Source: Thalassobaculaceae bacterium (GTDB lineage: Bacteria; Pseudomonadota; Alphaproteobacteria; Thalassobaculales; Thalassobaculaceae). From it: 64,000 nucleotides of DNA. Position 1 is the stretch's first letter; the number at the start of each line of letters is the position of its first letter. This document shows positions 20,251 to 63,828 of the stretch, in pieces. The notes under the pieces were generated by a model that saw only the letters and a program-made list of their open reading frames with translations, was not told the origin of the DNA and made no database searches. Made by a program: the position numbers and the translations under genes. Location: positions 1 to 64,000 of the forward strand of contig JARGOG010000021.1 in NCBI GenBank assembly GCA_029212785.1, read 5' to 3'.

Positions 20251-21489
20251 ATGGCAAACCGGGGGTTCGGGCCGCTCCAAGGCATGACGGTGATCGAGCT
20301 CTGCCATCACATGGCGGGGCCGACCTGCGGCCTGATGCTGGCCGATATGGGCGCCGACGTCATCAAGGTGGAGAAGATCAAGGGCGGCGACGACACCCGC
20401 CGCAACCTGCCGCCGGAGATCAATGGCGAAGCCGCCGCCTTCATGATGATGAACCGCAACAAACGCGGCGTCGTCATCGACCTGAAGACCGAGGAAGGGG
20501 CGGAAATCCTGCGCAAGCTGGTCGCAGAGGCCGATGTGTTGACCGAGAATTTCCGGCCCGGAGTGCTCGATCGGCTGGGGCTCGGCTATGACGACCTCAA
20601 GGCGATCAATCCCGGCCTGATCTACGCCTCTATCTCCGGCTTCGGACGCACCGGCCCCTATGCCAAGCGCGGCGGTTTCGATCTCGTCGCCCAGGGCATG
20701 AGCGGGCTGATGAGCATCACCGGCGAGCGGCCGGACGGCCCGCCGGTCAAGGTCGGCGCCCCGGTCTGCGACATCACCGCCGGCCTGTTGTTGGCGCTGG
20801 GCGTCTGCGCCGCCTATTCCCATCGGCTGAAGACTGGGGAGGGCCAGCGGCTCGATACCTCGCTGATGGAGGCGGGCATCACCCACACCTACTGGCAGTC
20901 GGCGATCGCCTTCGCCACCGGTGTCGCACCCCGCGCCATGGGATCGGCCCATCCGTTGAGTGCGCCTTATCAGGCGGTGAAGACCGCCGACGGCCACATC
21001 AACATCGCCGCCAATACCGGCCCGTTCTGGGCCGGCATGCTGGAGATGATCGGCGCGCCGGAGCTGGCCGAGGATCCGCGCTTCCGCAGCAACGGCGACC
21101 GCATGGCCAACCTGAAGGAACTGGAGGCGGAACTGAACGCCCGGTTCGAGACCCGCAGCAGCGCCGAGTGGCTGACCGAGTTCGAGGCCCGCGGCATTCC
21201 CGCCGGTCCGATCTTCGACGTTCTGGAGATGCACCGGGACCCTCAGACCATCGCCCGCGAGATGGTGCCGACCACCGAGCATCCGGTCGCCGGCACGGTC
21301 CAGACCATCGGCCTGCCGATCAAGTTCGAGACCACGCCCGGCAAGGTGGCGACACCATCGCCCCTGTTCGGTCAGCACACCGCGGATGTGTTGGCCGAAC
21401 TCGGCTACGGCCGGGAGGATATTGCCGCGATGGCGGAGAAGGGGGCGGTCCTGTTGGGCGAATTCCCGAGCAAGGAGGCGGCGGAGTGA
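20251..21489 (+). CDS. Class III (CaiB/BaiF) CoA-transferase
   Basis: 412-residue family III CoA-transferase, moving CoA between organic acids through an Asp-CoA thioester. N-terminal GMTVIELCHHMAGPTCGLMLADMGADVIKVE is the standard CoA-binding start; the catalytic Asp is in RGGFDLVAQGMSGLMSITGE; the RPADSSW-equivalent C-terminal SAEWLTEFEARGIPAGPI is normal. GGGAGG precedes the ATG. It overlaps the enoyl-CoA hydratase gene by 4 bases and follows the GntR gene by 34 bases, so the three form one unit. The acid it activates is unknown. Confidence 0.93.
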   Translation: MANRGFGPLQGMTVIELCHHMAGPTCGLMLADMGADVIKVEKIKGGDDTRRNLPPEINGEAAAFMMMNRNKRGVVIDLKTEEGAEILRKLVAEADVLTENFRPGVLDRLGLGYDDLKAINPGLIYASISGFGRTGPYAKRGGFDLVAQGMSGLMSITGERPDGPPVKVGAPVCDITAGLLLALGVCAAYSHRLKTGEGQRLDTSLMEAGITHTYWQSAIAFATGVAPRAMGSAHPLSAPYQAVKTADGHINIAANTGPFWAGMLEMIGAPELAEDPRFRSNGDRMANLKELEAELNARFETRSSAEWLTEFEARGIPAGPIFDVLEMHRDPQTIAREMVPTTEHPVAGTVQTIGLPIKFETTPGKVATPSPLFGQHTADVLAELGYGREDIAAMAEKGAVLLGEFPSKEAAE

Positions 21490-22298
21490 CCGACGTGAAG
21501 GGTACGAGCGATCTGAGTGGGACCGAGGATGTGCTGGTCCATATCGAGGACCGCATCGCCACGGTGACGATCAACCGGGCGGCCAAGCACAACGCCATGA
21601 ACCTGGAGGTGTTCGGCGCCCTGGGCAAGGTGTTCACCGCGCTGGACGCCGATGCGGAGCTGCGCTGCGTGGTTATCCGCGGCGCCGGCGGCAAGGCGTT
21701 CTCCGCCGGGGCCGACATCTCCGAGTTCGAGAGCGTGCGCAAGGACAAGAAGGCGGCGATCCAATACGCCAAGACGTCCAACCCGTCCGGCCATGCGGTG
21801 CTCACCTGCCGGCATCCGACCATCGCCCTGATCGAGGGGCTGTGCGTCGGCGGCGGCTTCGGGCTCGCGGCCCTGTGCGACCTGCGGATCTGCGGCGAGA
21901 GCAGCCGCTTCGGCGTGCCGGTCAAGCGGCTGGGCCTGGTGGAATCGCCCGAGGAACTGGAGTTCCAGGTGAAAAAATACGGCGCCACGGCGATGCTGGA
22001 GGTGCTGCTGGTCGGTGACCTGCTGAACGCCGAGAAGGCCTATCACTACGGCATGGTCAACAAGGTGGTGCCGGACGCGGAGGTTGAGGCGGCGGCCTAT
22101 GAATGGGCTGCCAAGATCGCCGAGGGCGCACCGCTGACCGCGCGCTGGCACAAGAAGTTCGTCTACCGGCTGGTCGACCCCGCCCCGCTCAACGCCGCGG
22201 AGATCGACGAAGGCTACGACGCCTTCGACACCGAGGACTTTCAGCGCGGTTACAAGGCGTTTCTGGCCAAGGAGAAGCCGAGTTTCGTGGGGCGGTAA
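21486..22298 (+). CDS. Enoyl-CoA hydratase/isomerase family protein
   Basis: 270-residue crotonase-fold protein. The oxyanion hole is formed by GKAFSAGADISEF and CVGGGFGLAALCDLRIC. At the usual catalytic Glu positions the sequence reads LIEGLCVGG and GLVESPEEL; a Glu is present in the second, so hydratase or isomerase activity is possible. The start is GTG 21486, overlapping the CoA-transferase stop by 4 bases. Part of the GntR-led cluster, expected to act on the CoA ester made by the preceding enzyme. Confidence 0.9.
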   Translation: MTDVKGTSDLSGTEDVLVHIEDRIATVTINRAAKHNAMNLEVFGALGKVFTALDADAELRCVVIRGAGGKAFSAGADISEFESVRKDKKAAIQYAKTSNPSGHAVLTCRHPTIALIEGLCVGGGFGLAALCDLRICGESSRFGVPVKRLGLVESPEELEFQVKKYGATAMLEVLLVGDLLNAEKAYHYGMVNKVVPDAEVEAAAYEWAAKIAEGAPLTARWHKKFVYRLVDPAPLNAAEIDEGYDAFDTEDFQRGYKAFLAKEKPSFVGR

Positions 22299-53892: not shown

Positions 53893-54798
53893 CTAGTGGG
53901 AAGCGGTGTCCGCCGTCTTCTCCGACACCGCCTCCAGGAACTCTTCCAGGGTCTCCGGACCGCCGTCGATGAAGCGCTCACGGAGGCCGAGATCGGCGAC
54001 CCACATTTGGCGATCACGGGTGCCGAGCGCGGTCGAGGGCTCTAATCCCAGGTCGCGCAGGGTGTCGGCGACGCTGTCCATCTCGATCGCTCGGCGTTTG
54101 CCGTGCACCGCCATGCGGCCCATGTGATACGTCGCCAGCGCGCGCCAGTCCGTATCCGGGAAGGTCGATTGAATTGATGCCAGCACCCGGTCGGCGACAC
54201 CGGCCCGGTCGGCGGCGACCAGGCTCTCGCACAGGATCGCCTCGATGCCCTTCATGAAGACCGAGCGGGCCATCTTGATGGTCGAGGCCTGGCCGACGGT
54301 GTCACCGACGACCTCCACGGTCATCCCGAAGGACCGCAGGTTCTCCGCCGCCGCTTCGGCCGCCTCGCCGGCCAGCAGCATCGGCACCAGATGGCCGCGC
54401 CCCGGCACGGTGTCCATCACCGCCACGTCCACGTAGCGGGCGGCGGAGGCGCCCTCCACCGCTTTGGCCGCCTTCACCTTCTTCCCCGGCGAGCAGGAGT
54501 TGAGGTCGAGATAGAGCTGGCCCTGGCGCAGATGCGGGGCGGCCGCCTCGGCCGCCTCCAGCGCACGTTCGGAAGTGACGGTGGAGAGGATCAGGTCGGC
54601 CTCGCCGACGGCCGCCGCGGACGTGAGGCAGGCTTTCGCTCCAAAGCTCTCGGCCTTGGCCACCCAGGCGTCCCGGGTGGCGGGATCGCCGGCCAGGAGA
54701 TCGTAGGCGGCGACCGACTTGGCGCCGGCACCGAGCATGCCCTGACCGATCTGCGGCCCGGCCTCGCCGAAGCCGATGAAGGCGAGATTCATGCTCAT
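53893..54798 (-). CDS. NAD(P)-binding oxidoreductase with DUF1932 C-terminal domain
   Basis: 301 residues of the 6-phosphogluconate-dehydrogenase-like superfamily. Rossmann motif LAFIGFGEAGPQIGQGMLGAG at the N-terminus; ADLILSTVTSERALEAAEAAAPHL and YVDVAVMDTVPGRG continue that domain. The Lys of VGQASTIKMARSVFMKG is the likely catalytic residue. The C-terminal helical part (WRALATYHMGRMAVHGKRRAIEM) is DUF1932. Its start overlaps the CoA-transferase stop by 4 bases. Probably oxidises a beta-hydroxy acid in the same pathway as its neighbours. Confidence 0.88.
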   Translation of the reverse strand: MSMNLAFIGFGEAGPQIGQGMLGAGAKSVAAYDLLAGDPATRDAWVAKAESFGAKACLTSAAAVGEADLILSTVTSERALEAAEAAAPHLRQGQLYLDLNSCSPGKKVKAAKAVEGASAARYVDVAVMDTVPGRGHLVPMLLAGEAAEAAAENLRSFGMTVEVVGDTVGQASTIKMARSVFMKGIEAILCESLVAADRAGVADRVLASIQSTFPDTDWRALATYHMGRMAVHGKRRAIEMDSVADTLRDLGLEPSTALGTRDRQMWVADLGLRERFIDGGPETLEEFLEAVSEKTADTASH

Positions 54799-56018
54799 CC
54801 GATTGCTCCTGTGTCCCTGAAGGCCCGGATCGCGGCCGGATCGTAGCCAAGTTCGGCGAGCAGGGTGTCGGTATCGCCGCCAAGCTCGGGGCCGGGCCGT
54901 TTCGGCGGAGTGGAGCCGGAATTGCGGATCGGATGGGCGACCATCCGGAACGCTTCCTCAAGCCCGAGTGCCGCGCCGTTCGGGGGTGGTGGAAAATGAT
55001 GGATGCCGTCGCGCTCGGCGACGAAGGGATTGTCCATGGCAGCGTCGATGTCGAGGATCGGCGAGGCCGGGACCGAGCCGCCGAACTCCACCATCCATTC
55101 GGCGGTGGTCTTTGCGCTAAGAGCCTCGTCCAGGATCTCCTGGATGGCCGGACGCTCGGCGAAGCGGGCCTTGAAGGAGACGAAGCGCGGATCCGTCGCC
55201 AGCTCCGGGCGACCGATCTTCTGGCACAGCGCCGGCCAGAACTTCTCCTTGTTGCACATCAGGTAGATCCAGCCGTCCTTGGTCTTGAAAGTCTGACACG
55301 GGGTCAGGGACGGATGGGCCGAGCGCGGCAGGCGGTCCTGCACATGGCCGGCGTTCAGGTACCAGGTCGAAAGATAGGTGACCGTGTGCAGGGCCAGATC
55401 GAACAGGCTGACATCGACGTCGCGGCCCTCGCCGGTGGTCCGGGCCTGGATGATCGCCGACGACACGCCGAAGGCCATGGTCACGCCGGTCATCAGGTCG
55501 ACGACCGAAAGGCCGAAGCGGCTCGGCGGCGATCCGGGCTCGCCGGTGACCGAAAACCACCCGGCCTCGGCTTGCATCAGATAGTCGTAGCCGGGCCAGG
55601 TCTTGCGTGGTCCATCGCGGCCATAGGCCGACAGATGGGCGCAGACGATCTTCGGGTTCACCTCCCGCAGGCTCGCATAGTCGAGGCCGAGCTTCTCCGG
55701 TACGTCGCCGCGCAGATTGTTGGTGACAGCGTCGGCGGTGGCGGCCAGTTCCCGGAAGATCCGCCGGCCCTCCTCGCTGCGCAGGTCGAGGGCGACGCTG
55801 CGCTTGTTGAGGTTGAACGAGTGGAAGAACTGGCTCTGCTTGCCGTCCTCGTCGAAGAAATACGGGCCGACGGCGCGCGACATGTCGCCGCCATCGGCCG
55901 GATTCTCGACCTTGATGACCTCGGCGCCCTGGTTGGCGAGATACATGGTGCCGAACGGGCCGGCACCATATTGCTCGACAGCCAGAATACGCACGCCTTC
56001 CAGCGGTTGACCCGCCAT
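54795..56018 (-). CDS. Class III (CaiB/BaiF) CoA-transferase
   Basis: 407 residues. Opening LEGVRILAVEQYGAGPFGTMYLANQGAEVIKVENP, catalytic Asp in WPGYDYLMQAEAGWFSVTGE and CoA-binding VDLMTGVTMAFGVSSAI. The C-terminal TTAEWMVEFGGSVPASPILDI is the normal dimer swap region. Third gene of a four-gene operon (57427 leftwards): 60 bases after the dehydrogenase and overlapping the DUF1932 gene by 4. It should activate the organic acid handled by that operon; the acid is unknown. Confidence 0.93.
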   Translation of the reverse strand: MAGQPLEGVRILAVEQYGAGPFGTMYLANQGAEVIKVENPADGGDMSRAVGPYFFDEDGKQSQFFHSFNLNKRSVALDLRSEEGRRIFRELAATADAVTNNLRGDVPEKLGLDYASLREVNPKIVCAHLSAYGRDGPRKTWPGYDYLMQAEAGWFSVTGEPGSPPSRFGLSVVDLMTGVTMAFGVSSAIIQARTTGEGRDVDVSLFDLALHTVTYLSTWYLNAGHVQDRLPRSAHPSLTPCQTFKTKDGWIYLMCNKEKFWPALCQKIGRPELATDPRFVSFKARFAERPAIQEILDEALSAKTTAEWMVEFGGSVPASPILDIDAAMDNPFVAERDGIHHFPPPPNGAALGLEEAFRMVAHPIRNSGSTPPKRPGPELGGDTDTLLAELGYDPAAIRAFRDTGAIG

Positions 56019-56078
56019 GGCCTTCTCCTCAGTCCGTCTCCTGCCCGGTATGGTCTTCTTTTTGGTCTTGAGGCCTGT

Positions 56079-56990
56079 TCAGGCCTTCGGGCCCTTGAGC
56101 TTCACGGCGTTGATTTTCTCCAGGTACTCGATGGTCGCCTCGTGGTTCGTTTCAGGCATGACCTCGTTGTACTTGGTCCAGATCTGGTTCAGCTCGTGCA
56201 GCAGCGGCGCGAACATGTCCTGGTCACCGGCGAGGCCGGCGGCGATGCCGATATCCTTGGCCATCAGCGCGGTCGCGAAGCCAGAATTGTAGGTCCGCGG
56301 CAGCACCGACTGGTGATACTTGCGTTCGGTCGAGGAGTTGCGGCCGGTCGAGACGTTCAGGATGTCGACCATGGCGGCCGGATCCAGACCGAACTTCTGG
56401 CCGATCAGCAGTGCCTCGTTCGCCGCGGTCAGGCCGACGGCGGACAGATAGTTGTTCAGGCACTTCATCGCGTGGCCTGTGCCGAGCGGGCCGCAGCGGA
56501 AGATGTTCTTCCCCGTCGCCTCGAAGAACGGCATGACCTTGGCCAGCGCCGCCTCGTCGGAGCAGCCAACCATGATGGAGAGCGTCGCCTTGTCGGCGCC
56601 GGTCACGCCGCCGGAGACCGGCGCGTCGATCAGGGTCACGCCCTTGGCATGCAGTTCGTCGCCGAGCTCGCGGGTGCCCATCGGGGCGGACGAGCTCATG
56701 TCGACGACGATCTTGCCCTCGGCGAAACCGGAGGCGAGGTTGTCGCCGTCGCCGAAGCAGATCCGGCGGACCACCTTGCCGTCGGGAACGATGGTCACGA
56801 GAACGTCCGACATCTCGGACAGGGCGGCGAGGCTGGGCGCCCGCTTGGCGTCGAACTCATCGGCGAAACGGCCGAGCTTGTCCTGGTCGAGGTCGAAGAC
56901 CGCGATATCGACGCCGGCCTGTTTCGCGTTGCGGGCCATCGGCCAACCCATGTTGCCGATGCCGATCCACCCGACGGTGATGTCGGACAT
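56079..56990 (-). CDS. 3-hydroxyisobutyrate dehydrogenase-like NAD-binding protein
   Basis: 303 residues. NAD motif GWIGIGNMGWPMARNAKQAGVDIAVFDLD, substrate-binding VDMSSSAPMGTRELGDEL and DAPVSGGVTGADKATLSIMVG, catalytic Lys in GTGHAMKCLNNYLSAVG. All residues of the beta-hydroxyacid dehydrogenase family are intact. It belongs to the operon led by the carboxymuconolactone decarboxylase-like gene, 53 bases downstream of it. Likely substrate is a 3-hydroxy acid; 3-hydroxyisobutyrate itself cannot be asserted. Confidence 0.9.
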   Translation of the reverse strand: MSDITVGWIGIGNMGWPMARNAKQAGVDIAVFDLDQDKLGRFADEFDAKRAPSLAALSEMSDVLVTIVPDGKVVRRICFGDGDNLASGFAEGKIVVDMSSSAPMGTRELGDELHAKGVTLIDAPVSGGVTGADKATLSIMVGCSDEAALAKVMPFFEATGKNIFRCGPLGTGHAMKCLNNYLSAVGLTAANEALLIGQKFGLDPAAMVDILNVSTGRNSSTERKYHQSVLPRTYNSGFATALMAKDIGIAAGLAGDQDMFAPLLHELNQIWTKYNEVMPETNHEATIEYLEKINAVKLKGPKA

Positions 56991-57043
56991 GTCTTTCTCC
57001 GTTGCTCGTTGGTGTTCTTGGGATGGGGTGCGGGTGATGGGGA

Positions 57044-57427
57044 TCAGTCGAGCCCCATCTCCTTGAACACCTCACGGGCGTTGCGGAAGGCGTCGATCGC
57101 CGCCGGCACGCCGCAATAGATGGCGGTCTGCAGGAAGATTTCCTTGATGTCGTCCTTGGTTAGGCCGTTGTTGATGGCGCCGCGGATGTGCAGACGCAGT
57201 TCGTGGCTGCGGCCGAGCGCCACCAGCATGCCGAGGTTCAGCATCGAACGTTGCTGACGGTTCAGGCCCGGCCGGCCCCAGACCTCGCCCCAGCAGTACT
57301 CGGTGACGAGTTCCTGCATCGGCATGTTGAAGTCGTCGGCGGATGCGATCGACTTGTCGACATACTCTGCACCCAGCACTTCGCGGCGGTTCTTCAGACC
57401 GGCCTCGAACATGGCCTTGTCGCTCAT
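57044..57427 (-). CDS. Carboxymuconolactone decarboxylase (PcaC/AhpD-like) protein
   Basis: 127 residues, the length of PcaC. EYVDKSIASADDFNMPMQELVTEYCWGEVWGRPGLNRQQRSMLNLGMLVALGRSHEL and AINNGLTKDDIKEIFLQTAIYCGVPAAIDAFR in outline match 4-carboxymuconolactone decarboxylase. The Cys-x-x-Cys of AhpD peroxidase relatives is absent, so a decarboxylase or related reaction is likely. First gene of the leftward operon; GGAGG lies before the ATG, and the palindrome at 57443 is 15 bases upstream of the start. Confidence 0.88.
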   Translation of the reverse strand: MSDKAMFEAGLKNRREVLGAEYVDKSIASADDFNMPMQELVTEYCWGEVWGRPGLNRQQRSMLNLGMLVALGRSHELRLHIRGAINNGLTKDDIKEIFLQTAIYCGVPAAIDAFRNAREVFKEMGLD

Positions 57428-59193: not shown

Positions 59194-59952
59194 CTACCCC
59201 ACCCGCACCATCGCCCCGTCGACCGGGATCGCCGCGCCGCTGATGTAGCGGGCGAGCGGCGAGGCCAGGAACACCATCAGGATCGCCAGATCCTCCGGCT
59301 CGCCGAAATATCCCGCCGGAATGTAGCGGTCGATAAAGGCCTGCCGACTCTCCTCGGTCGGATGCAGCCGGTTGTCGATCTGCTCGGAATGGATCCGGCC
59401 GGGAGCGATTGTGTTGACGGTGATCCCGAAGGGCGCCAGCTCCAGCGACATCGTGCGCGACCAGGACTGCAGCGCCGCCTTGGCCGGCATGGCGGCGTTC
59501 ATCGAGCTGCCGACCATGGCACCGGTGACGTTGATGATGCGGCCCCAGCGGCGCTCCTTCATGCCGGGCACGACCGCCGCCGACAGCCGCCGCGCCGCCT
59601 CGAAGTTCAGCTTGAAGGACGCCTCCCAAAACGCCTCGTCCCACGGATCCTCCATCGGGCGCGAGCCGCCGGCATTGTTGATCAGGATGTCGACCGCACC
59701 GCCGGCCGCGTCCAGGGCGCGATCGGCGATACCGGCGCAGCCCACGACGCTGTCAAGGTCGCCGGTCACTGCCACGGGTGCTGGGGCACCGGCTTTCACC
59801 ACGTCATCGATCACAGCCTGAAGAGCGGCTTCCCTGCGGCCATGGATGATCACCTTCGCCCCTTCACGGGCCAGAAGAAGGGCGGCCGACCGTCCGATGC
59901 CGGAGGAGGCGCCGGAAATCAGGGCGGTCTTGTCGGAGAGAAGGAGATCCAT
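59194..59952 (-). CDS. Short-chain dehydrogenase/reductase-like protein lacking catalytic Tyr
   Basis: 252 residues. The NAD(P) motif GASSGIG (14-20) and structural NNAG (92-95) are present, as is the Lys of the SDR active site (MPAK, Lys158). But at the position of the catalytic Tyr (four residues before Lys) there is Ala154, and the Ser region reads NVTGAMVG (141-148), with no Ser there. The C-terminus (GYFGEPEDLAILMVFLASPLARYISGAAIPVDGAM) is typical. The ATG at 59952 follows GAGGA; an upstream extension to 60120 has no signal. Divergent from the SMP-30 gene, 166 bases away. Confidence 0.82.
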   Translation of the reverse strand: MDLLLSDKTALISGASSGIGRSAALLLAREGAKVIIHGRREAALQAVIDDVVKAGAPAPVAVTGDLDSVVGCAGIADRALDAAGGAVDILINNAGGSRPMEDPWDEAFWEASFKLNFEAARRLSAAVVPGMKERRWGRIINVTGAMVGSSMNAAMPAKAALQSWSRTMSLELAPFGITVNTIAPGRIHSEQIDNRLHPTEESRQAFIDRYIPAGYFGEPEDLAILMVFLASPLARYISGAAIPVDGAMVRVG

Positions 59953-60118
59953 GTGGGTATCCTCAGATCTGGTGTCCGGGAGCGACAGGCCTGCTCCATA
60001 GCCTATCGGGCGCATCATGCCCAAAGCGACCGTCATCCGATCATGCCGGTTCGGCAAGACCGCTTTGCGCGTGCCCGTCTTTTCCGCGATCCGGGGGCGG
60101 AGTACAGTCCGACCCATC

Positions 60119-61105
60119 ATGGATTTTCAAATCACCCCCGATACCGTCTCGTTCTTCGGTCATGGCCTCAGCCGCCCGGAATGTGTCGCCTGTACTGCGG
60201 CTGGCGCGATCTGGGTCAGTCATGCCCTGGCGACAGGCGGCGGCGGCGTGGCCCGGCTCGACGCCGACGGCACCCCGCACACGATCGTCGCATCCGATGG
60301 CGCGCCCGCCGACTTCATGCCAAACGGCTGGTCGATGGCGCCGGACGGTTCCTTCCTGATCGCCAATCTCGGTGACAGCGGCGGCGCCTGGCAGCTCTTC
60401 CCCGACGGATCCTGCAAGCCGGTGCTGCTGGAGATCGACGGCTACAAGGTGCCCCCGGTCAATTTCGTCCATCTGGACGAGGAGGGTCGGGTCTGGATTT
60501 CGATCAGCACCTGGCGCATCCCGCGCGACCGGGCCATGCATCGCGAGGTCGCCGACGGATTCGTCATCCTGATGGACGCGATCGACCGGCCGGATACCGC
60601 GCGCATCGTCGCCGACGGCATCGGCTACACCAACGAGGTCAAGGTCGACCCGACGGGCCGCTGGCTCTACGTCAACGAGACCATGGCCCGGCGGCTGTCC
60701 CGCTTCGAACTCAAGGGCGACGGGCTCGGCACCCGGCAGACGGTGGTGGACTACATCGACGCGGTGATCCCCGACGGGTTCGAATTCGACGTGGAGGGCG
60801 GGGTGTGGTGTGCCAGCGTGATGAGCAACCGCCTGGTGCGCGTGGCGCCGGATACCAGCCAGCATGTGATCCTTGAAGATTGCGATCCCGCGGAGATGGC
60901 CGATGCCATGACCCGCTGGCGCGACGGCGGCTACAGCCGCGACGACCTGATGATCGGTGCGAAGCGGTCGCTGAAGAACATCGCGAGCATCACGTTCGGC
61001 GGACCGGACCTGAAGACGGTCTATTGCGGCTCGCTTGCCGGCGAGGGGCTGGTGACATTCCGCTCCCCGGTGGCCGGCGCCGTGCCGCCCCACTGGACAT
61101 TCTGA
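60119..61105 (+). CDS. SMP-30/gluconolactonase family lactonase
   Basis: 328 residues of the six-bladed beta-propeller SMP-30/LRE family. Metal-site residues expected of the family are seen as Glu in LSRPECVACTA, Asn in GIGYTNEVKVDPTGRWLYVNE and Asp in AVIPDGFEFDVEGGVWCAS. Family members hydrolyse lactones. ATG 60119 begins the propeller (MDFQITPDTVSFFGHGLSRPE). It leads the operon with the HMG-CoA-lyase-like and CoA-transferase genes, 17 bases before the former. Confidence 0.85.
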   Translation: MDFQITPDTVSFFGHGLSRPECVACTAAGAIWVSHALATGGGGVARLDADGTPHTIVASDGAPADFMPNGWSMAPDGSFLIANLGDSGGAWQLFPDGSCKPVLLEIDGYKVPPVNFVHLDEEGRVWISISTWRIPRDRAMHREVADGFVILMDAIDRPDTARIVADGIGYTNEVKVDPTGRWLYVNETMARRLSRFELKGDGLGTRQTVVDYIDAVIPDGFEFDVEGGVWCASVMSNRLVRVAPDTSQHVILEDCDPAEMADAMTRWRDGGYSRDDLMIGAKRSLKNIASITFGGPDLKTVYCGSLAGEGLVTFRSPVAGAVPPHWTF

Positions 61106-61122
61106 CAAACGGAGGAAACGAA

Positions 61123-62061
61123 ATGACACAGGTTCGCAAGGTGGAGGTGACCGAAGTCGGCCCCCGCGACGGCCTGCAAGCCGAGAAGCGGATGATTCCG
61201 GCGGCGGAGAAGATCGCGCTGATCAACCGGCTGATCGATGCCGGCGTGCCGCGGATCGAGGCGACGTCCTTCGTGTCGCCCAAGGCGGTGCCGCAGCTTG
61301 CCGACGCGGCGGAGGTCATGGCCGGCATCGACCGGTCGAAGGGCGCGATCATCGCCACTTTGGTCCCGAACGGCCGCGGCGCCATCCGGGCCGCCGAGTG
61401 CGAGGTCGACGAGATGGTGGTCTTCGTGTCGGCCTCCGAAAGCCACAACAAGAAGAACGTCAACCGTTCGATCGAGGAGTCGCTCAAGGGCTTCGAAGAG
61501 GTCGCGCGGATTGCCGAGGACGCCAAGATCCCGGTGCACGGTGCCATCGCCACCGCCTTCGGCTGCCCGTTCGAAGGCAATGTGCCGGCGAGCCAGCTGG
61601 CGATGATCGCCAAGCGGTATCAGGACATGGGCTTCGTCGGCATGACCTTCGGCGACACCACCGGCATGGCGACGCCGCCGACGGTGCGGGCCGGCGTGGC
61701 GGCGGTGCGCGAGGCCGCCCCGAAGCTGACCATGGGCCTGCATTTCCACAACACCCGCGGTATCGGTCTCGCCAATGTCATGGCCGGGCTCGATGAGGGA
61801 ATCGACAAGTACGAGAGCTCTTTCGGCGGCACCGGCGGCTGCCCGTTCGCGCCGGGGGCGACCGGCAACATCTGCACCGAGGATCTGATCTACCTGCTGC
61901 ACGAGATGGGCATCGAGACGGGCATCGATCTGCGCCAGCTCATGGCCATCGCCTGCGACGTGGAGACGGTCGTCGGCCACGCCCTGCCGGGCCAGGTGAT
62001 GCGCGCCGGGCAACGCCTGGACCTGCACGACATGGACGCCGTCCGCACCGCCGAGGGGTAA
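61123..62061 (+). CDS. HMG-CoA lyase-like (HMGL family) aldolase
   Basis: 312 residues. Opening VEVTEVGPRDGLQAEKRMIPAAEKIALI with the catalytic Arg-Asp pair, the metal-binding HFHNTRGIGLANVMAGLDEGI (His residues) and the lyase signature FGGTGGCPFAPGATGNICTEDLIYLL with its conserved Cys. The length and order are those of hydroxymethylglutaryl-CoA lyase; in such operons the true substrate may be another 3-hydroxy-acyl-CoA. GGAGG precedes the ATG. It is followed by a CoA-transferase gene 6 bases later. Confidence 0.93.
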   Translation: MTQVRKVEVTEVGPRDGLQAEKRMIPAAEKIALINRLIDAGVPRIEATSFVSPKAVPQLADAAEVMAGIDRSKGAIIATLVPNGRGAIRAAECEVDEMVVFVSASESHNKKNVNRSIEESLKGFEEVARIAEDAKIPVHGAIATAFGCPFEGNVPASQLAMIAKRYQDMGFVGMTFGDTTGMATPPTVRAGVAAVREAAPKLTMGLHFHNTRGIGLANVMAGLDEGIDKYESSFGGTGGCPFAPGATGNICTEDLIYLLHEMGIETGIDLRQLMAIACDVETVVGHALPGQVMRAGQRLDLHDMDAVRTAEG

Positions 62062-62067
62062 GCATAC

Positions 62068-63249
62068 GTGTCTGACAGTGACATTACGGGCGCCCCGGCC
62101 GGGGCGCTCGACGGGATCCGCGTTGTCGATCTTACCCGCATTCTGGCGGGACCGTTCTGCACCCTGATGCTCGCCGATATGGGCGCCGACGTGATCAAGG
62201 TGGAGCCGGCCGCCGGCGACCCGGTCCGCGGCCAGGGGGCGATGGTCGACGGTTACAGCTGGTACTTCGCCCAGTTCAACCGCAACAAGAAATCCGTCGT
62301 CCTCGACCTTTACACCGACGACGGCAAGGCCGACCTGACCCGACTGCTGGAGACGGCGGATGTGGTGGTGGAGAACTACCGTCCCGGCGTCTTCGCCAAG
62401 ATGGGTTTCTCCGCCGAGCGGTTGGCCGAGATCAATCCCCGGCTGATCTGCGCCAGCGTCAACGGCTACGGCTCCTCCGGTCCCTATGTCGACCGACCGG
62501 CCTTCGACTTCATCGCCCAGGCGATGAGCGGCTTCATGGCGGTGAACGGCGATCCGGACGGTCCGCCGCGACGGGCCGCGCCACCAATCTCGGACCTGAT
62601 CGCCGGCCTGTACTGCGCCTTCGGCGTGGTCTCGGCCCTGCAGGCGCGGCACTCCACCGGGCGCGGTCAGCAGGTCGAGAGCAGCCTGACCGGCGGCCTG
62701 ATCTCCATGATGGCCTATCTTTCGGCCGAACATTTCGCCACCGGCCACAACCCGACCCGTACCGGCAACAACCATCCGATCGTCGCCCCCTATGGGCTGT
62801 TCGAGGCGGCGGATGGCGAGATCGCGGTCGCGCCGTCGAACGACACGTTCGTGGAACGCTTCCTGCGGGTGCTTGGGCTGGAAGCGCTGCTGCGAGAGCC
62901 GGAATTCGACACCAATGCCAACCGCATGGCCAATCGGACGGCGTTGAACGCCCGGGTCAACGCGGTCACCCGCGCGAAGCCGGTGCAGTATTGGATCGAC
63001 GCGATCAACAAGGCGGGGTGTCCGGCGGGGCGGGTCATGGGCCTGGACGAGGTCTTCACCGATCCGCAGGTGCTGGCCCAGGAGATGGTGATCCAGTCGG
63101 AGCGTGACGGGCGCGAACCGATCAAGATGACCGGCTTCCCGGTCAAGCTGTCCGCAACGCCGGCCGCCCTTCGGCAGCCGCCTCCCGAACTGGGCGAGCA
63201 TACGGATGAAATTTTAACAATTGTGAGAAAGGCCACAAAGTCGCATTGA
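62068..63249 (+). CDS. Class III (CaiB/BaiF) CoA-transferase
   Basis: 393 residues. LDGIRVVDLTRILAGPFCTLMLADMGADVIKVEPAAGDPVRGQG at the N-terminus, catalytic Asp in DRPAFDFIAQAMSGFMAVNG, and FGVVSALQARHSTGRGQQVES next to it. C-terminal AINKAGCPAGRVMGLDEVFTD is standard. Start GTG 62068. The order lactonase, lyase, CoA-transferase suggests that it activates the acid that the lyase cleaves. Last gene of the operon. Confidence 0.94.
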   Translation: MSDSDITGAPAGALDGIRVVDLTRILAGPFCTLMLADMGADVIKVEPAAGDPVRGQGAMVDGYSWYFAQFNRNKKSVVLDLYTDDGKADLTRLLETADVVVENYRPGVFAKMGFSAERLAEINPRLICASVNGYGSSGPYVDRPAFDFIAQAMSGFMAVNGDPDGPPRRAAPPISDLIAGLYCAFGVVSALQARHSTGRGQQVESSLTGGLISMMAYLSAEHFATGHNPTRTGNNHPIVAPYGLFEAADGEIAVAPSNDTFVERFLRVLGLEALLREPEFDTNANRMANRTALNARVNAVTRAKPVQYWIDAINKAGCPAGRVMGLDEVFTDPQVLAQEMVIQSERDGREPIKMTGFPVKLSATPAALRQPPPELGEHTDEILTIVRKATKSH

Positions 63250-63303: not shown

Positions 63304-63828
63304 ATGGCGCTCACCGACACCGTTTTCGTCTATCCGGATCTCGACACCAGCTCGGTCGAGTACGCGCCGGATTTCAGCACGGCCGGGGTTCGCTCGTGGC
63401 TTCGCACCATCAAGATGCGCGACGTTCTCGATTTCTGGAATGACATCCGTCAGTTCCGGCGCTGCCCGAACATGACCGATGTCGAATTCACCTCGGTTCC
63501 CGAACTTGCCAACTGGATGATCCTGCTCGAACGTCCGGTGCCCGGCGGCGAGTGTCTGTTCCGCAAGGTCGGCGCCAAGATCGTCGAGCTGTCGGAGCTC
63601 GACATCACCGGCCAGCCGTTGCTCTCCCTGCCGGATCCGGAATACCGCCGGATGTTCCAGGCGAATTGCGACGCCGTCACCCGCGCCGCCATGCCGCTCG
63701 CTTCGCGCTATCGCCGTATGCTGAAGGGGCGGAGCTTCGATTTCGAGCGACTCGACCTGCCGCTGATGCTGGAATCCGGACGGGTCGGCGGCGTTCTCGT
63801 CGGCATGCACGCCGCCGGCGCCGACTGA
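63304..63828 (+). CDS. PAS_5-type sensory-domain protein
   Basis: 174 residues related in pattern to the PAS_5 protein at 32231: MRDVLDFWNDIRQFRRCPNMTDVEFTSVPELANWMILLE, CLFRKVGAKIVELSELDITGQPLLSL and YRRMFQANCDAVTRAAMPLAS. The C-terminal FDFERLDLPLMLESGRVGGVLVGM resembles the PAS_5 end strand. It is a stand-alone domain, 55 bases after the CoA-transferase and 76 bases before a helix-turn-helix gene. Role unknown; signal sensing is inferred. Confidence 0.75.
   Translation: MALTDTVFVYPDLDTSSVEYAPDFSTAGVRSWLRTIKMRDVLDFWNDIRQFRRCPNMTDVEFTSVPELANWMILLERPVPGGECLFRKVGAKIVELSELDITGQPLLSLPDPEYRRMFQANCDAVTRAAMPLASRYRRMLKGRSFDFERLDLPLMLESGRVGGVLVGMHAAGAD

Follow-up and report, generated by a model that had tools for sequence, protein, structure and literature searches.

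A conserved lactonase, lyase, and CoA-transferase operon in Thalassobaculaceae with a putative role in branched hydroxycarboxylate catabolism

The DNA analyzed here (the window) is a stretch of 64,000 nucleotides of contig JARGOG010000021.1 (assembly GCA_029212785.1) from a Thalassobaculaceae bacterium. It carries adjacent plus-strand genes for an SMP-30/gluconolactonase-family protein (SGL), a protein of the HMGL family resembling 3-hydroxy-3-methylglutaryl-CoA (HMG-CoA) lyase, and a class III CoA-transferase (CaiB), with a short-chain dehydrogenase/reductase (SDR) encoded divergently upstream (Table 1). With only 17 nt between SGL and HMGL and 6 nt between HMGL and CaiB, the three genes form, judging from their layout, a tight operon. 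A preliminary description of this region had named these genes in this order, and both the genes and their order are real; the position at which it began, 59952, does lie in the SDR gene but marks only its start codon, the body of the gene extending to 59194. A repeat scan of the divergent intergenic region revealed an imperfect inverted repeat (60016-60028/60061-60073); no sigma-70-like promoter was found there, and promoter and terminator scans did not rise above chance.

Table 1. Features at and near the operon in the window
Feature	Coordinates	Strand	Profile or location
SMP-30/gluconolactonase-family protein (SGL), putative metal-dependent lactonase, 328 aa	60119-61105	+	PF08450, 76.4 bits (cut-off 26.3)
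HMG-CoA-lyase-like 3-hydroxyacyl-CoA lyase (HNTRG subtype), 312 aa	61123-62061	+	PF00682 HMGL-like, 157.3 bits
Class III (CaiB/Frc) CoA-transferase, 393 aa, GTG start	62068-63249	+	PF02515 CoA_transf_3, 441.9 bits
Divergent SDR, 252 aa	59194-59952	-	PF13561/PF00106
Divergent intergenic region, 166 bp	59953-60118		between SDR and SGL
PAS_5-domain protein	63304-63828	+	PF07310; immediately 3' of the operon
Four-gene cluster: DUF1932 dehydrogenase, second class III CoA-transferase, HIBADH-type dehydrogenase, 4-carboxymuconolactone decarboxylase-like protein	53893-57427	-	decarboxylase-like protein above TIGR02425

The predicted structure of SGL is a confident beta-propeller (pLDDT 93.9). Foldseek searches with this model returned the RPA3624 beta-propeller lactonase (8djf) as the top match, followed by diisopropyl fluorophosphatase (DFPase), with Drp35, SMP30, and a xylonolactonase further down. 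Residues E21, N115, N172, and D219 do not vary across 20 aligned orthologue rows; judging from the Glu/Asn/Asn/Asp set of SMP30 and DFPase, they would be putative metal ligands. Sequence and model point to a putative member of the SMP-30/gluconolactonase lactonase family, with a predicted hydrolytic activity. The protein is 88% identical to the SGL of Thalassobaculum litoreum DSM 18839.

The lyase exceeds the HMG-CoA lyase subfamily cut-off of NCBIfam NF004283 (362.7 versus 246 bits). In alignments with solved HMG-CoA lyases (6nds and 1ydo for the window protein, 2cw6 and 2ftp for its orthologue at locus L099), it retains GPRDG, HFH, and GGCPFAPGATGN, presumably the core catalytic motifs (the Arg-Asp pair, the HxH element, and the Cys loop). 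The operon lyases read HFHNTRG, whereas 2ftp and the LiuE protein encoded in the liu cluster of genome G036, which is 47% identical to the window lyase, are of the HDTYG type (HFHDTYG in LiuE). The CoA-transferase falls below the curated NCBIfam cut-off for all seven named models, those for glutarate, oxalate, mesaconate, and carnitine among them; its best equivalog scores are 326 versus 750 bits for succinate--glutarate and 302 versus 522 bits for oxalate. By sequence, the nearest solved class III CoA-transferases carry oxalate, formyl-CoA, or hydroxymethylglutarate in their names.

Conservation of the operon was followed in the window's bacterial family (f1), represented by 36 genomes (G000 to G035) from genera labeled g1 to g12, with the window in g1; G numbers denote genomes and L numbers the individual loci that were opened. 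An SGL orthologue is present in 24 of the 36 genomes, and in all 24 loci, each of which was opened, it is accompanied by CaiB; HMGL lies between the two in 21. A scan of named genomes added three gammaproteobacterial metagenome-assembled genomes (MAGs; L070, L073, and L074) with the triad. The triad is retained at SGL identities as low as ~50%. On the SGL tree, the f1 rows and the three gammaproteobacterial rows make up one clade of 27 (SH-aLRT 99, by a quick method), of which 24 have both HMGL and CaiB and the other 3 only CaiB. Pairing of SGL with CaiB requires three changes on this tree, i.e., it occurs in separate branches. In the phylum sample, SGL was detected at E<=1e-30 in 3 of 398 genomes, the window's own included, and in the class sample, at E<=1e-60, in 28 of 385.

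The lyase was matched at E<=1e-85 in 26 of the 398 phylum-sample genomes, and CaiB adjoins it in 12 of 12 loci fetched from these genomes. The lyase-CaiB pair likewise recurs on plasmids, in each of five loci taken from the HMGL match list (Nitratireductor, Skermanella, Ponticoccus, Paracoccus, and Roseomonas), four of which have tripartite tricarboxylate transporter (TTT) genes nearby, and several loci with lyase relatives sit beside tripartite ATP-independent periplasmic (TRAP) or TTT carriers. As judged from sequence and neighbors, the lyases related to that of the window form a group linked to CoA-transferases. Two Acetobacteraceae loci combine these elements in the orders SGL-DctM-CaiB-lyase (L080) and DctP-SGL-DctM-CaiB with a divergent HpcH/HpaI (CitE-type) lyase (L077); the latter lyase scores under both the citE and the RipC/Ccl cut-offs.

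The SDR does not share this conservation. It adjoins the operon in only 4 of the 24 f1 SGL loci, all in genus g1 (the window, L024, L025, and L026), and in all four copies the YxxxK motif is replaced by AMPAK or AAPAK, so that the Tyr is gone and the Lys retained; the position of the catalytic Ser is Ala in an alignment with FabG. Because both the Tyr and the Ser are replaced, the protein is unlikely to be an ordinary dehydrogenase; it probably lies outside the conserved module and is perhaps a non-redox or regulatory SDR. The preliminary description had joined all four genes in a route that begins with SDR-catalyzed oxidation to a lactone. We rejected this first step, the gene being unconserved with the operon and its product lacking the catalytic Tyr; SGL, HMGL, and CaiB are conserved together, and the remainder of that route, namely, ring opening, CoA transfer, and C-C cleavage, fits these three adjacent genes as well as the Acetobacteraceae and Burkholderia loci (see below).

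We infer the reactions and their order from protein family and context, the identity, order, and conservation of the genes being observed. The interpretation we favor, to which we assign a probability of about 0.55, is that of a three-enzyme catabolic operon that degrades a branched hydroxy-(di)carboxylate in its lactone (or free acid) form. The SMP-30 propeller would hydrolyze the lactone to the hydroxy acid, the class III CoA-transferase would pass CoA to this acid, probably from succinyl-CoA, and the HMGL-type lyase would split the resulting 3-hydroxyacyl-CoA at C2-C3 to yield acetyl-CoA, or some other short acyl-CoA, along with an oxo compound. The SDR would be dispensable in this route, and the lyase could double as the HMG-CoA lyase of the leucine pathway. 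Read this way, what had been three generic annotations add up to a pathway that is conserved in marine Alphaproteobacteria and can be tested, beginning with a named candidate substrate. The preliminary description had held that no substrate is known for the combination, and our search of the open-licence literature agrees, finding no description of it.

Several observations weigh against this interpretation. The set is not always complete: the three g9 genomes without HMGL retain SGL and CaiB, and five g2 genomes have the lyase and CaiB without an SGL orthologue. The remainder concern the leucine pathway, the relatives of SGL in other settings, and the Burkholderia clusters, and are taken up in turn.

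The strongest competitor, to which we would give roughly one chance in four, is that the lyase is the (S)-HMG-CoA lyase used by the genome for leucine, that CaiB draws on succinyl-CoA to salvage free 3-hydroxy-3-methylglutarate, and that SGL opens a side product, e.g., a cyclic HMG derivative. LiuE is missing from the f1 liu clusters of G002, G003, G007, and G025 (L197, L198, L200, and L201), which do encode LiuB, LiuC, and LiuD. In 14 genomes (G004, G006-G010, G016, G017, G019, G021, G025, G027, G030, and G033), the operon-type lyase is the sole HMGL match at E<=1e-20; an MccA orthologue at >=58% identity accompanies it in 12 of them (partial in G019), including five g2 genomes that lack SGL; MccB homologues at >=71% occur in 25 of the 33 f1 genomes searched. 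Because the operon-type lyase is the only HMGL match at this threshold in these 12 genomes with MccA and the four liu clusters lack LiuE, a role in leucine catabolism is plausible, and the lyase may also, or instead, serve the breakdown of leucine-derived HMG-CoA. Its score above the NF004283 cut-off and the resemblance of CaiB to succinate--glutarate and succinate--hydroxymethylglutarate transferases fit such a role. A bifunctional citramalyl-CoA/HMG-CoA lyase is described for Mycobacterium tuberculosis, although with the CitE fold (PMC6689899).

Other features of the lyase argue against an exclusive role in leucine catabolism. It is encoded outside the liu cluster, it carries HNTRG rather than HDTYG, its relatives adjoin TRAP and TTT importers, and g9 lost it yet retained SGL and CaiB. 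In g8, all four SGL-bearing genomes (G012, G021, G031, and G034, MAGs of 71-91% completeness) keep the triad lyase, but no full-length MccA orthologue was found in them: the best full-length match is 46% (G012), a 55% match covers the first 450 residues (G012 and G031), and G021 and G034 gave none, though an MccB homologue (71-72%) persists in G012 and G034. The preliminary description had given, as the case that would speak against its route, a lyase acting only on HMG-CoA from leucine, with liu/mcc genes elsewhere and no role for the lactonase. The liu/mcc genes do lie elsewhere in the genome, and the 12 sole-lyase MccA genomes agree with that case; the g8 genomes, which keep the lyase without a full-length MccA, do not.

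A second competitor, considerably less probable, starts from the relatives of SGL. None of 25 further SGL loci of the class sample (L219-L243) contains HMGL or the triad CaiB, and in 8 of them PdxA-like and/or Gfo/Idh dehydrogenase genes adjoin SGL; in G036, its neighbors are an Iso_dh-family, a Gfo/Idh, and an SBD_N/NBD_C (DUF1537-type) gene. The closest SGL relatives outside the clade (42-46% identity) belong to PdxA/Gfo clusters of the sugar-acid type, so SGL may be, by descent, a lactonase for sugar acids. It is conceivable, if doubtful, that SGL is still an aldonolactonase (e.g., for a branched C4-C5 acid such as apionate), with CaiB and HMGL replacing the kinase and dehydrogenase steps of its relatives; a Foldseek list with a lactonase at its top and a xylonolactonase among its entries would suit this reading. 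However, the triad has neither a sugar dehydrogenase nor a sugar importer as a conserved neighbor, and the names of the solved CoA-transferases nearest to CaiB point away from sugar acids. In a separate carboxylate context for this SGL group, plasmids of Palleronia and Martelella (L187 and L188) carry an SMP-30 relative (38-40%) beside the tricarballylate genes tcuA/tcuB and a dehydrogenase gene.

Least probable of all is a merely historical adjacency, in which SGL, HMGL, and CaiB are cotranscribed but act in separate pathways, as the partial sets of g9 and g2 and the insertion of cytochrome P450 and zinc alcohol dehydrogenase genes in g7 might suggest, since the triad persists to ~50% SGL identity and in gammaproteobacterial MAGs and SGL joins CaiB in separate branches of its tree.

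For a catabolic operon acting on a branched hydroxycarboxylate lactone, the substrate we favor, with low confidence, is 2-hydroxyparaconate/itatartarate, which would yield acetyl-CoA and hydroxypyruvate. This suggestion draws on two Burkholderia-type plasmid loci, the only two such loci, which were reached via the SGL search. Plasmid p3 of Caballeronia zhejiangensis (L185) encodes LysR, CaiB, HMGL, SMP-30, major facilitator superfamily (MFS), and VOC proteins, a symporter, and a D-2-hydroxyacid dehydrogenase; plasmid 2 of Paraburkholderia caribensis (L186) encodes glycerate kinase, D-2-hydroxyacid dehydrogenase, SMP-30, MFS, and symporter proteins, with LysR, HMGL, and CaiB on the opposite strand. 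The Caballeronia symporter is above the DctA subfamily cut-off and the glycerate kinase above TIGR00045, while the D-2-hydroxyacid dehydrogenase reached no profile cut-off. The Caballeronia VOC protein is 62% identical to that of a Pseudomonas aeruginosa itaconate cluster composed of MaoC, acyl-CoA dehydrogenase, VOC, PrpD, CaiB, lyase, and TRAP genes. Within the P. aeruginosa PA0878-0886 cluster, the corresponding gene, PA0880, was reported to encode a 2-hydroxyparaconate lactonase; 2-hydroxyparaconate, a fungal compound, slowed the growth of engineered Pseudomonas putida, and a mixture of it with itatartarate was no carbon source for the P. putida strain equipped with the P. aeruginosa cluster, lactone opening being the only step which that work reports (PMC9875883; PMC12290011).

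In its fullest form, the operon would be a complete assimilation route for this antimicrobial fungal lactone: the SMP-30 protein would open it to itatartarate, the CoA-transferase would form itatartaryl-CoA, and the lyase would release acetyl-CoA and hydroxypyruvate, the latter entering glycerate metabolism. We consider this unlikely as it stands. Hydroxypyruvate from itatartaryl-CoA would need a 2-hydroxyacid dehydrogenase and a glycerate kinase, as in the Burkholderia loci, and references for these two enzymes matched nothing in the f1 operon loci, making itatartarate a less likely substrate in the case of the window. The Burkholderia proteins are also distant from those of the window (SGL, 39%; HMGL, 44-46%; and CaiB, 33% identity), their SGLs lie on a separate branch of the SGL tree, and the VOC gene also occurs without the SGL/CaiB/HMGL set. 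If the proposal were nevertheless true, an SMP-30 enzyme would fill the role that PA0880 has as a VOC lactonase, 2-hydroxyparaconate would have an assimilation route, and itatartarate, unused as a carbon source by engineered P. putida, would have a metabolic fate. Even if it were wrong, the data raise the question of whether bacteria without LiuE in the liu cluster use a CoA-transferase-linked HMGL for leucine. On the Paraburkholderia plasmids at L195 and L196, a VOC gene like that of P. aeruginosa lies beside an MFS transporter gene without an itaconate cluster, possibly as a stand-alone 2-hydroxyparaconate resistance pair.

The surroundings of the operon vary among genera. A dedicated regulator divergent from SGL was considered and rejected, since the recurrent gene found divergent or nearby in g3, g4, g7, g8, g9, and g12 encodes a second SMP-30 protein. 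The neighborhoods of g7, g8, g9, and g12 variously include an oligopeptide-type ABC transporter, a HAD hydrolase, MmgE/PrpD, an ADP-forming acyl-CoA synthetase-like protein, and a PhyH oxygenase; in g7, a P450 gene, with or without the zinc alcohol dehydrogenase gene, is inserted between SGL and HMGL. LepA and prephenate dehydratase genes adjoining CaiB in g7-g10 look like housekeeping neighbors. The PAS_5 gene is kept with the operon in g1 (L024-L026), with a 32% counterpart in L031. The four-gene minus-strand cluster accompanies the triad in no genera other than g1 and g5 (L024-L027) and is not needed for the proposed route. At 20251-22298, the window has a third class III CoA-transferase, 41% identical to that of the operon, followed by an enoyl-CoA hydratase. 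The genome's second HMGL homologue (G000:C139:160940-161818, L002/L044; 41%) adjoins another CaiB, and HMGL-CaiB pairs of this GPREGFQ type are present in other f1 genomes. CitE-type lyases, found in 34 of 34 genomes searched, were uninformative as evidence.

Among characterized systems, the P. aeruginosa PA0878-0886 itaconate/methylsuccinate cluster comprises Ich, Mcd, the RdoPA 2-hydroxyparaconate lactonase, MmgE/PrpD, Ict, Ccl, and TRAP genes (PMC9875883; PMC12290011). Like it, the window operon joins a class III CoA-transferase, a 3-hydroxyacyl-CoA lyase, and a lactonase gene, and its relatives in g8, g9, and g12 have MmgE/PrpD while those in Acetobacteraceae have TRAP carriers; CaiB of the window is 37% identical to Ict, and PrpD of L040 is 32% identical to its P. 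aeruginosa counterpart. Unlike it, the window has an SMP-30 propeller rather than a VOC lactonase and an HMGL-type rather than a CitE-type lyase, and neither the MaoC hydratase Ich nor the CitE-type Ccl was among the reference matches at the f1 operons. A class III transferase and an HMGL-family lyase are also encoded together in the citramalate couple, and the (R)-citramalyl-CoA lyase of Chloroflexus is akin to HMG-CoA lyases. The reactions of that couple are those of succinyl-CoA:(R)-citramalate CoA-transferase (EC 2.8.3.20) and (R)-citramalyl-CoA lyase (EC 4.1.3.46) (PMC8307300); its transferase belongs to the same class as that of the window, but it has no lactonase. LiuE shares its family and core motifs with the window lyase but differs from it in location, in the HDTYG motif, and in the pairing of the window lyase with CaiB. 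The Caballeronia and Paraburkholderia plasmid clusters bring together SMP-30, HMGL, and CaiB as the window does, with SGL from another branch, a divergent CaiB, and additional DctA, D-2-hydroxyacid dehydrogenase, and glycerate kinase or VOC genes. We view the set of lactonase, CoA-transferase, and lyase as a variant of the known CoA-transferase-plus-lyase catabolic module.

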